25,357 nt of DNA, from the IMG/VR virus record IMGVR_UViG_3300020469_000237, positions 1 to 25,357 of that record; one strand, 5' to 3'. The position numbers were made by a program, and so were the translations under genes. The notes beneath the pieces were generated by a model. That model ran no database searches, was not told the DNA's origin, and was given only the letters and a program-made list of their open reading frames with translations. Below, piece after piece: positions 22,618 to 25,357 of this stretch; positions within the stretch are counted from its first letter, which is position 1; every line of letters begins with the position of its first letter. This stretch comes from a virus.

Positions 22618-23097
22618 ATGAAGACATACAAAGGAAGATATCGAGTAAAAAATATAAAAAAGTATAAAGGTGACCATACTTCGGTTATTTTTAGGTCTTT
22701 GTGGGAAAGGCATTGCTTTCGATGGTGTGACGATAACCCAAAAGTAGAGTCATGGAGTTCAGAAGAAACTGTTGTACCTTATTATTACGAAATAGATAAA
22801 CGTTATCATAAGTATTATCTTGATTTGAAAATAACATTTAAAGAAGGTAAAACACTTCTTGTTGAAATAAAACCAGATAAAGAAACTAAACCACCAAGAG
22901 GTGCAAAACGAACAAAACGATATATTACTGAGGCAACAACATACGTCAAGAACATGAACAAGTGGGAAGCGGCAGATGAATATGCAAAAGATAATGGATA
23001 TGAGTTTCAAATTTGGACAGAAAAGACACTTACTGCAATGGGTATTATGCCAAAATCAACAAAACCTTTAAAACCTTTTACAAGACGTAAGAAATAA
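22618..23097 (+). CDS. gp4: Head completion nuclease gp4
   Basis: A 159-residue basic protein, near T4 gp4 (150). It has a TnsA / PD-(D/E)xK type nuclease core: RSLWERHCFRWCDDNP with the leading Glu, then KYYLDLKITFKEGKTLLVEI and KPDKET, giving the D...ExK active site. Homologues in T4 (gene 4, also called 50 or 65) finish the packaged head so that the tail can be attached. It is the first gene of the rightward late unit and has its own late promoter. The 14-bp gap to the next gene is almost filled by another late promoter. Confidence 0.88.
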   Translation: MKTYKGRYRVKNIKKYKGDHTSVIFRSLWERHCFRWCDDNPKVESWSSEETVVPYYYEIDKRYHKYYLDLKITFKEGKTLLVEIKPDKETKPPRGAKRTKRYITEATTYVKNMNKWEAADEYAKDNGYEFQIWTEKTLTAMGIMPKSTKPLKPFTRRKK

Positions 23098-23111: not shown

Positions 23112-23693
23112 ATGTCAAATATCTTTCAGAAACTAGAACTCGCGGCATTTCGTAATCAAATTACTCCACGAACCGAAGAGAGTAGAGCATGGTTTATGAA
23201 GAAAGCGAGAACGATACGAGGTATTAATAGAGAAGAACTCATGAAAGAAGATGAAGTCAGTAGTGGTGGTAGACGAATCATCGGGTCAATGCAGATGTTC
23301 TTTTATGACCCAAAATTTAAACAGACATTACCGTACTATGATACTTTTCCATTAGTTATTGTAATCAAACCTGCAAAGGGTGGGTTTCTAGGATTGAATC
23401 TACATTATTTGCCACCAACGCTTCGTGCAAAGTTTCTTGATGCATTAATGGACAATGTCACAAGTAAGAAAAGCGATAATGCAAAGTTTGACTTAACAGT
23501 ACGATTGTTAGCAAGTGCAAGTAAGTTAAAGTATTACGAACCTTGTATCAAACATTATTTAAATGCACAAGTAAAGAGTAAGTTTGCAGAAGTCAAGGCA
23601 CCAGAATGGGAGATTGCTACATTTTTACCAACTGCTCAATTCCAAAAAGCAACACAAACTAAAGTCTATGCAGATAGCAGGAAAATGATATGA
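23112..23693 (+). CDS. Conserved phage protein of unknown function (193 aa)
   Basis: A 193-residue protein I cannot name, though its core looks familiar from T4-like marine phages: SMQMFFYDPKFKQTLPYYDT, FPLVIVIKPAKGGFLGLNLH, and YLPPTLRAKFLDALMD (residues about 59-117). The N-terminus is basic (AWFMKKARTIRGINREEL). The C-terminus (FLPTAQFQKATQTKVYADSR) resembles a short extended tail. It lies between gp4 and gp54 and overlaps gp54 by 4 bp (ATGA), so it is probably a late protein linked to tail tube or head completion. It does not resemble the T4 gp2 sequence as I remember it. There are no membrane segments or catalytic motifs I can see. Confidence 0.65.
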   Translation: MSNIFQKLELAAFRNQITPRTEESRAWFMKKARTIRGINREELMKEDEVSSGGRRIIGSMQMFFYDPKFKQTLPYYDTFPLVIVIKPAKGGFLGLNLHYLPPTLRAKFLDALMDNVTSKKSDNAKFDLTVRLLASASKLKYYEPCIKHYLNAQVKSKFAEVKAPEWEIATFLPTAQFQKATQTKVYADSRKMI

Positions 23694-24475
23694 CAACAGG
23701 AGTAATAGATACATTTAAAAGTAGAGTAAGTGAAGGTCAAGGTCTTGCAATGGCCAATTTGTTTCGTGTCTTTTTACCACCAATTATTGGTGTCAGAACA
23801 GAAGATATGGATATTCTCTGTAAGGCCGCACAAATACCAGGTAGACAAATACTTTCAACAGAAAGATTTATGGGTATGACAACTATGAAAGTTGCAAATG
23901 GTTATGCTAGTGACGATGTAACTTTAACATTCTATTGTTTAAATGACATGAGAATCATCGATTACTTTCATGCTTGGCAATCAAAAGCAGTTAACCAAGA
24001 AGAACAAGAAGTGGGTTATTTAAATGATTACACTTACCCAGTAATTATTCAAGCACTTAAAAAAGGTGCAGAAAATCCACTGTTAAAACCTAAAAAGTTA
24101 TTTGACAATAAACTACCAGATGCATTAAGAGATATGATACCACCAATTGGTCCACTTGACTTAGCAAATGGTACTTTTGATTTAGGTTTGTTAGGTGATA
24201 CAGGTTTGAGGTATATGGCAGAAGGAGTAACATATTCTTGTCGTTTAGATAAAGCATATCCTACTACTATAAATAGTTTTGAAATGACAAATGAACCAGA
24301 CGGTTTATTAGAAGTGAATGTCCAGTTATCGTATAAAAACTTTACGATAGTTGAAGGCAATTTAAAAGATAGAATCATTGATAAAGCAATTGATGTTGTC
24401 GGTGATAAAGTGAAAAGTAAACTTAAAAATAAAGTCCTTAATGGATTTACAAGTACACTTATAGATAGATTATAA
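23690..24475 (+). CDS. gp54: Baseplate tail tube initiator gp54
   Basis: A 261-residue protein of the tail-tube fold; T4 gp54 has about 320 residues and the tube protein gp19 about 163. Landmarks are MANLFRVFLP, ILCKAAQIPGRQILSTERFM, GYASDDVTLTFYCLNDMRII, DYFHAWQ, and the C-terminal KAYPTTINSFEMTNEPDGLL, EVNVQLSYKNF. gp54 polymerises on gp48 and nucleates the tail tube. The length and the neighbours gp4 and gp26 favour gp54 over gp19, but both share this fold, so the choice depends partly on context. The lysine-rich C-terminus (residues 225-261) is probably a helix. Confidence 0.78.
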   Translation: MTTGVIDTFKSRVSEGQGLAMANLFRVFLPPIIGVRTEDMDILCKAAQIPGRQILSTERFMGMTTMKVANGYASDDVTLTFYCLNDMRIIDYFHAWQSKAVNQEEQEVGYLNDYTYPVIIQALKKGAENPLLKPKKLFDNKLPDALRDMIPPIGPLDLANGTFDLGLLGDTGLRYMAEGVTYSCRLDKAYPTTINSFEMTNEPDGLLEVNVQLSYKNFTIVEGNLKDRIIDKAIDVVGDKVKSKLKNKVLNGFTSTLIDRL

Positions 24476-24489
24476 TATAGGAGAATATT

Positions 24490-25203
24490 ATGAGTAATGC
24501 ATTACCAAAATTAAATGCAAACCCAACTCACGAGTTGACCATTCCGTCAACTGGGCAATTAGTGAGATATCGTCCCTACTTAGTAAAAGAAGAAAAGATA
24601 TTGCTTCTTGCATTTGAGTCTAAAGACGAAAAACAGGCGATGCAGGCAATGGTAGATACAATCGTTGCATGTGTTAATGAAAAAGTCAATACTGATAAAC
24701 TTACTGCATTTGATGTTGAATATATGTTTACACAAATACGTAGTAAATCTGTAGGTGAAACAACTAAAATCAATGTTGCATGTTCTGAATGCGAAACAAT
24801 GCATGAGCATACAATTAATCTAGCAGAACTTAAGGTTGAAGTTCCCGACATAAACAATGTTATTGAGTTAACAGATACTATCTCTGTAGAGTTAAAGTAT
24901 CCACCTTTTAGTTCATTTATTAAAAACTACGGGTCAAAACAATCTGAAACTGAGTTTAGTTACATGATTATTAATAATTGCATTGATGCAGTAATTAATG
25001 GTGATAATAGAATTAGTGCAGATGAAGTTTCACTTGACGATATAAAAGAGTTTGTTGAATCAATGAGTTCTCAACAATTTCAATCTGTTGCAGATTATAT
25101 TCAAAGTATGCCTAGTTTAGAGCAAACAATTGAATTTAAATGTACTAATTGTGAACACGAGAATAGTAGAACACTTAGAGGCATATCAGATTTTTTCTCC
25201 TAA
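24490..25203 (+). CDS. gp26: Baseplate hub assembly protein gp26 (T4_baseplate family)
   Basis: A 237-residue protein; T4 gp26 has 208. The pattern PSTGQLVRYRPYLVKEEKIL, LLAFESKDEKQAMQAMVDTI and VEYMFTQIRSKSVGE is typical of the T4_baseplate chaperone family. Two Cys pairs, CSEC near residue 100 and CTNC near residue 222, suggest a small zinc site. It helps assemble the hub and is likely not abundant in the virion. AGGAG eight bases from the ATG is a strong ribosome binding site. The stop at 25201-25203 is preceded two codons earlier by a slippery T TTT TTC, after which the -1 frame stays open to the window end. Confidence 0.85.
   Translation: MSNALPKLNANPTHELTIPSTGQLVRYRPYLVKEEKILLLAFESKDEKQAMQAMVDTIVACVNEKVNTDKLTAFDVEYMFTQIRSKSVGETTKINVACSECETMHEHTINLAELKVEVPDINNVIELTDTISVELKYPPFSSFIKNYGSKQSETEFSYMIINNCIDAVINGDNRISADEVSLDDIKEFVESMSSQQFQSVADYIQSMPSLEQTIEFKCTNCEHENSRTLRGISDFFS
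25191..25197 (+). promoter_or_regulatory. Putative -1 ribosomal frameshift heptamer T TTT TTC
   Basis: In the gp26 frame the codons are GAT TTT TTC TCC TAA, so the seven bases form X XXY YYZ in the correct phase. A slip of one base back gives TTT TTT CTC CTA AAC and enters the open -1 frame. Stems start 11 to 20 bases downstream. Confidence 0.6.
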
Positions 25204-25357
25204 ACCTTTCGCATGATAGTTTGATAAATTACTATCAGACTAACTTTGCGATGATGCAACATCATAAGTACAGTTTGACAGAACTAGAAAATATGATACC
25301 ATGGGAAAGGGAAATTTACATTACATTATTATTAGATTGGATAAAAAAAGAAGAAGA
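25197..25357 (+). CDS. -1 frame extension of gp26 (cut by right edge)
   Basis: An open frame of 53 codons continues from the slippery site to the window end. It contains SHDSLINYYQTNFAMMQHHK, then YSLTELENMIPWEREIYITL and LLDWIKKEE. This looks like a real, helical, conserved small-protein sequence; the HKYSLTELE...PWERE part is familiar to me from short genes downstream of gp26-like genes. The first ATG is at 25251, with no Shine-Dalgarno before it, and protein-like sequence begins upstream of it. This favours expression as a gp26 fusion by frameshifting, comparable in logic to lambda G/GT. The alternative is a separate short gene starting at 25251 (ATG) or 25221 (TTG), perhaps comparable to T4 gp51 in role. 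Confidence 0.55.
25209..25251 (+). other. Hairpin downstream of the slippery site
   Basis: TGATAGT (25214-25220) pairs perfectly with ACTATCA (25231-25237) around a 10-base loop. TCGCA (25209-25213) continues the stem by pairing with TGCGA (25247-25251) across a 9-base bulge. A competing hairpin pairs AGTTTGATA (25218-25226) with TATCAGACT (25233-25241), nine pairs including one G-T, with a 6-base loop. Either could act as a stimulator of frameshifting. Confidence 0.5.

Follow-up and report, generated by a model that had tools for sequence, protein, structure and literature searches.

The gp26 and gp51 proteins of T4-like phages have reportedly been identified as tail assembly chaperones (TAC-N/TAC-NC) by Vladimirov, Gautam and Davidson in 2022. 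One paper credits this work with poly-T slippery sites in the short-form genes of T4-like phages (PMC12846349), and the PRFect paper, which also cites it, describes T4-like phages in which the short and the long chaperone each have their own gene, in place of frameshifting (PMC10885494). As presented in these citing papers, a frameshift-made chaperone pair is already proposed for this phage group and is not new as a kind; the statement of the first-pass annotation that such a device was not known to be described for a T4-type gp26 must therefore be withdrawn. In lambda, the short form gpG is accompanied by gpGT, a rarer form extended by a -1 frameshift, beside the tail tube and tape measure genes, and a 2016 review describes this G-T frameshift as widely conserved 'except T4' (PMC5009743). 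For T4, gp26 and gp51 are both listed as hub assembly chaperones, gp51 being essential yet absent from the particle (PMC3004832). Moreover, in the Vandenendeviridae phage Adele, the short chaperone gene carries near its 3' terminus a T-rich -1 site (GTTTTT), with an unannotated extension (PMC12846349).

The locus studied here lies in a window (the whole stretch of DNA analyzed) of 25,357 nucleotides, corresponding to the IMG/VR virus record IMGVR_UViG_3300020469_000237. Compared through the descriptions given in the citing papers, it belongs to the same phage group as the gp26/gp51 genes of Vladimirov et al. and has the same short/long pair and poly-T site, its difference being that the window represents an uncultured lineage. 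The synonymous-codon, selection, Shine-Dalgarno (SD)-like and folding tests reported below are this analysis's own. The likeness to lambda lies in the short and extended forms and in the neighboring genes, whereas the slip sequence is another one and no sequence or significant fold relation is shown here. Adele, likened by its slip-site description, belongs to another phage family. On the other hand, T4 differs from the window in having two genes, which arose by duplication, and no slippery site.

Gene context and slip site of the window locus

The features of the locus are the following.

23690..24475, + strand: tail tube gene, directly upstream of gp26 (PHROG_45 tail tube, E 1.5e-30)
24490..25203, + strand: gp26, short form, putative tail assembly chaperone, T4_baseplate family PF12322 (profile matches)
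25177..25181, + strand: SD-like AGAGG, candidate stimulator, 9 nt upstream of the heptamer
25191..25197, + strand: slippery heptamer T TTT TTC (direct reading), one sense codon (TCC) ahead of the gp26 stop
25191..25357, + strand: -1 frame extension, gp51-like C-terminal domain (PHROG_634 match), its 3' part lying beyond the window end
25209..25251, + strand: candidate stimulatory hairpin, 10-bp upper stem 25217-25226/25233-25242 and lower stem 25209-25213/25247-25251
25214..25237, + strand: alternative hairpin TGATAGT/ACTATCA, stem 25214-25220/25231-25237, register 45

The gp26 product is matched by PF12322 (E 4.7e-58; 196.9 bits against a curated cut-off of 24.5) and by PHROG_150 (E 1.9e-59), and its AF2 model has a pLDDT of 88. 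The window ends before the position of the tape measure gene, and the downstream neighbor is known from a close relative, L005, with a gp26 82% identical, where the gene after gp51 encodes a 512-aa protein matching tape measure family PHROG_58 (E 7.5e-8). The resulting order of tail tube, gp26/51 and tape-measure-like gene is the lambda order of tail tube, G, GT and tape measure; together with the listing of both T4 proteins as hub assembly chaperones, it leads us to read the locus as encoding a short/long pair of tail assembly chaperones. A fold search of gp26 against solved structures gave nothing significant, the HK97 chaperone 2OB9 appearing at ranks 9 and 12 with E about 1 and a probability of 0.25-0.33, and the same search with a T4-like gp51, the long form, gave no significant match. 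A sequence search of the PDB returned nothing relevant, and in a viral structure library most of the named matches were to further gp26-type proteins or to proteins of the baseplate hub. Elsewhere in the window, the head closure (gp4-like) protein at 22618-23097 has a match (E 3.3e-16) to PF08722, the N-terminal domain of TnsA-like endonucleases.

The 3' end of gp26 reads ...AGA GGC ATA TCA GAT TTT TTC TCC TAA, with the TAA at 25201-25203. The heptamer T TTT TTC conforms to X XXY YYZ, stands in the 0-frame phase for tandem -1 slippage, as the first-pass annotation had claimed, and is followed by an open -1 frame. This frame is open from 25179, 5' of the heptamer, to the window end.

Conservation of the slip site, and candidate stimulators

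A comparison of 178 gp26 loci, taken from IMG/VR contigs and annotated phages of several families, revealed an in-phase TTTTTT[C/T/A/G], 0-2 codons ahead of the gp26 stop and with an open and homologous -1 frame, in 175 of them, the heptamer being TTTTTTC in 113 of these 175. The alignment of relatives proposed as a check thus finds heptamer, phase and open -1 frame conserved in nearly all loci. The Phe-Phe pair is nearly invariant in gp26 and the codon preceding it is always NNT, even though it encodes Asp, Ser, Asn, Gly or Ala. Given the protein and the codon usage of each locus, finding NNT TTT in all 50 heptamer-carrying clusters has a log10 P of -23.2, the clusters being defined at 70% identity and taken as independent, so that kinship makes the true P less extreme. 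Synonymous positions are near saturation across the relatives (pS about 0.8), and the heptamer is kept even where TTT use is about 0.18-0.24, for example in YB07, OLIVR5, phiW-14, RHph_Y68 and phiM7. Searches of viral contigs for further relatives of K483 and phiW-14 gave no new lineage.

Regarding the candidate stimulators, the starts of SD-like tetramers fall at -15 to -12 in most lineages. Pairing with the anti-SD averages -7.25 kcal/mol there; synonymous-codon controls give -5.39 (mean z -1.12 +/- 0.17, n=50), and other parts of gp26 give -1.6. A conserved L-x-G peptide accounts for part of this pairing signal. Downstream, both of the alternative hairpins announced by the first-pass annotation exist in the window, where the 60-nt fold reaches -16.7 kcal/mol (z -3.7 against peptide-preserving shuffles). 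Across 29 lineages, the folding excess over such shuffles has a mean z of -1.5 +/- 0.29; a single conserved stimulatory stem was sought across lineages and not found, the stems occurring in differing registers.

The -1 frame extension and its counterpart in T4

The -1 frame peptide, read from the slip site, is FFLLNLSHDSLINYYQTNFAMMQHHKYSLTELENMIPWEREIYITLLLDWIKKEE, and over its 53 residues in the window it is matched by PHROG_634 (gp51, 'baseplate hub assembly catalyst') with an E of 8e-26. In relatives, the extension ends about 60-66 codons beyond the slip site. The predicted gp26-gp51 junction peptide for the window lineage is ...GISDFFLLNLSHDSL.... Counting from the first base of the gp26 stop, the first ATG of the -1 frame is at +50, a TTG at +20 being the only near start codon; the protein-like open -1 frame, claimed earlier to begin ahead of any ATG, is thereby borne out. 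In another lineage, C48C1, the -1 frame contains zero ATG, GTG or TTG up to +75 of the gp26 stop, so its annotated gp51 start would remove the beginning of the conserved domain.

For the 12 -1 frame codons 3' of the slip site, which are largely past the gp26 stop and precede any ATG, a pN/pS of 0.31 was obtained from 44 unique segments; sequences with an ATG among the 15 codons that follow the slip site were excluded. Entropy at the three codon positions of the same codons is 0.74, 0.61 and 1.36, the third position being the most variable. These substitution patterns indicate selection at the protein level on the -1 frame ahead of any ATG. Along with C48C1, this speaks against gp51 being an independent protein in these lineages. 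Annotated gp51 genes (L083:4780-4884 and similar) start internally and lose a conserved LSHDSL... segment.

In T4, the situation is different. The 249-aa gp51 of T4 also belongs to PF12322, which covers its residues 1-201 (E 3.9e-52); PHROG_150 matches it over the whole length, and PHROG_634 matches the C-terminal part. In a joint alignment, the rows of gp26, the -1 extension and T4-type gp51 join gaplessly at the slip-site Phe. By these matches, T4 gp51 is the equivalent, domain for domain, of the predicted gp26-gp51 fusion. PF12322 genes number two in T4 and phiAS4 and one in each of 14 other phages tested. Those T4-type gp26 genes that retain Phe-Phe spell it as the non-slippery codons TTC TTT after GAG/GAA, and the heptamer is never present in them. 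Where the heptamer is truly lost, in T4, the long form is encoded in frame by a gene of its own, and this supports the frameshift reading. T4 gp26 and gp51 are paralogues lying back to back on opposite strands (L082:5803-7229), gp51 having the extra C-terminal domain. In one T4-type contig (L189:3001-3746), gp51 is split into two ORFs by an in-frame stop, a sequencing error or a broken gene.

In an unrooted tree, the T4-type copies of gp26 and of gp51 each form a well-supported clade, and the single-gene phages group together with weak support (82/50). The Straboviridae hold both states, nt-1 and PX29 carrying the heptamer. The simplest history suggested by these data would be a single replacement of the frameshift by the two-gene arrangement, in the T4 line.

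Some phages are exceptions to the heptamer. In the Vibrio phages VPALA, SUMAE and K483 (L093, L094 and L201 being the Vibrio loci), CTT TTC replaces the T6 heptamer, and in the Ackermannviridae S8, PP35, phi1_175010 and phiMAM1 (L197, L198, L199 and L200) the string is ATT TTC or GTT TTC. In all of these NTTTTC phages the -1 frame is still open and has a PWH-type gp51 motif, mostly without a start codon at the junction. Relatives that lost the heptamer while both frames persist, which the first-pass annotation had held to speak against frameshifting, do exist in this side clade, but they have the NTTTTC string and mostly no junction start codon. The Ackermannviridae/Vibrio side clade may slip at this weaker string. 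The gp51-like -1 stretch of S8, PP35, phiMAM1, VPALA and SUMAE carries no annotated gene.

Alternative explanations and proposed mechanism

The heptamer could be incidental if the protein needs Phe-Phe and AT-rich genomes spell it as TTTTTTC, as might be thought from the near invariance of this pair and from the preference for TTT in many of these phages. However, the third-base T of the preceding codon is fixed whatever the amino acid (log10 P = -23.2, as above), phages of low TTT use (near 0.18-0.24) keep the heptamer and T4-type genes keep Phe-Phe as TTC TTT, which leaves this explanation with practically no credibility. Amino-acid conservation alone, considered as the cause of the heptamer, was ruled out by the codon statistics together with the T4-type TTC TTT. 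Alternatively, RNA polymerase could slip and add a U to some transcripts, which would join the two frames with no need for a ribosomal frameshift. The sequence is a run of T, and it reaches 7-8 T in loci ending GATTTTTTTTAG. Nonetheless, T runs usually need to be longer than six T for polymerase slippage, in most loci a C follows after only six T (113/175 TTTTTTC), the -1 ribosomal phase is kept exactly and the SD-like element stands at ribosomal spacing, making polymerase slippage extremely improbable.

It is somewhat less remote, though still very unlikely, that gp51 is produced on its own as a small protein through translational coupling, with reinitiation at a start codon near the gp26 stop. 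Database annotators place gp51 starts at such near-stop ATGs, which overlap the gp26 stop (TAATG/TGATG, +2) in nt-1, Cr30, phiW-14, YB07, RHph_Y68 and S-CRM01 and lie at +5 in many cyanophages, where reinitiation could coexist with frameshifting. However, the first ATG of the window lineage comes only at +50, ATG, GTG and TTG are all absent near the junction of C48C1, the codons ahead of any ATG are selected as protein, and in T4 the gp51 domain is covalently fused. Moreover, coupling leaves the invariant heptamer unexplained, and the heptamer is kept even where an ATG is found at +2 or +5.

Thus, the comparative tests, with heptamer, phase and open frame conserved and selection ahead of any ATG, support the original reading of gp26 and the downstream peptide as joined by a programmed -1 frameshift. 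We consider it very probable, from these genomic comparisons, that the locus makes a short/long pair of tail assembly chaperones in this way, like lambda G/GT. Established here are the sequence and phase of the site, its conservation, the selection on the -1 frame protein ahead of any ATG, and the equivalence of the predicted fusion to the in-frame gp51 of T4. Most ribosomes would end at the gp26 TAA and give the short form of 237 aa. In a minority, the Phe-tRNAs on TTT TTC would move one nucleotide backward to pair with TTT TTT, and translation would continue into the gp51 segment; the product would be a gp26-gp51 fusion approximately 300 aa long. If the parallel with lambda G/GT holds, the gp26 part common to both forms would cover the tape measure protein, and the gp51 tail would bring in the subunits of the tail tube. 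The SD-like element and the hairpin would act as stimulators of slippage. A more tentative proposal, which we regard as possible and rather less likely than otherwise, is that an internal, dnaX-like SD element within the L-x-G motif is the main driver, the hairpin drifting freely, and that a single ancestral frameshift gave way once, in the T4 line, to a gene duplication and decayed to an NTTTTC site in the Ackermannviridae.

Finally, many database entries list gp51 as an independent protein whose start codon is doubtful, and because internal starts drop the LSHDSL... segment, the long chaperone form would be missing from many records. The long-mysterious gp51 of T4 becomes interpretable as the long form of the chaperone. 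Frameshifting is very probably the way in which a large and abundant group of T4-like phages from the sea produces its two tail chaperones, whereas the model phage T4 uses two genes.
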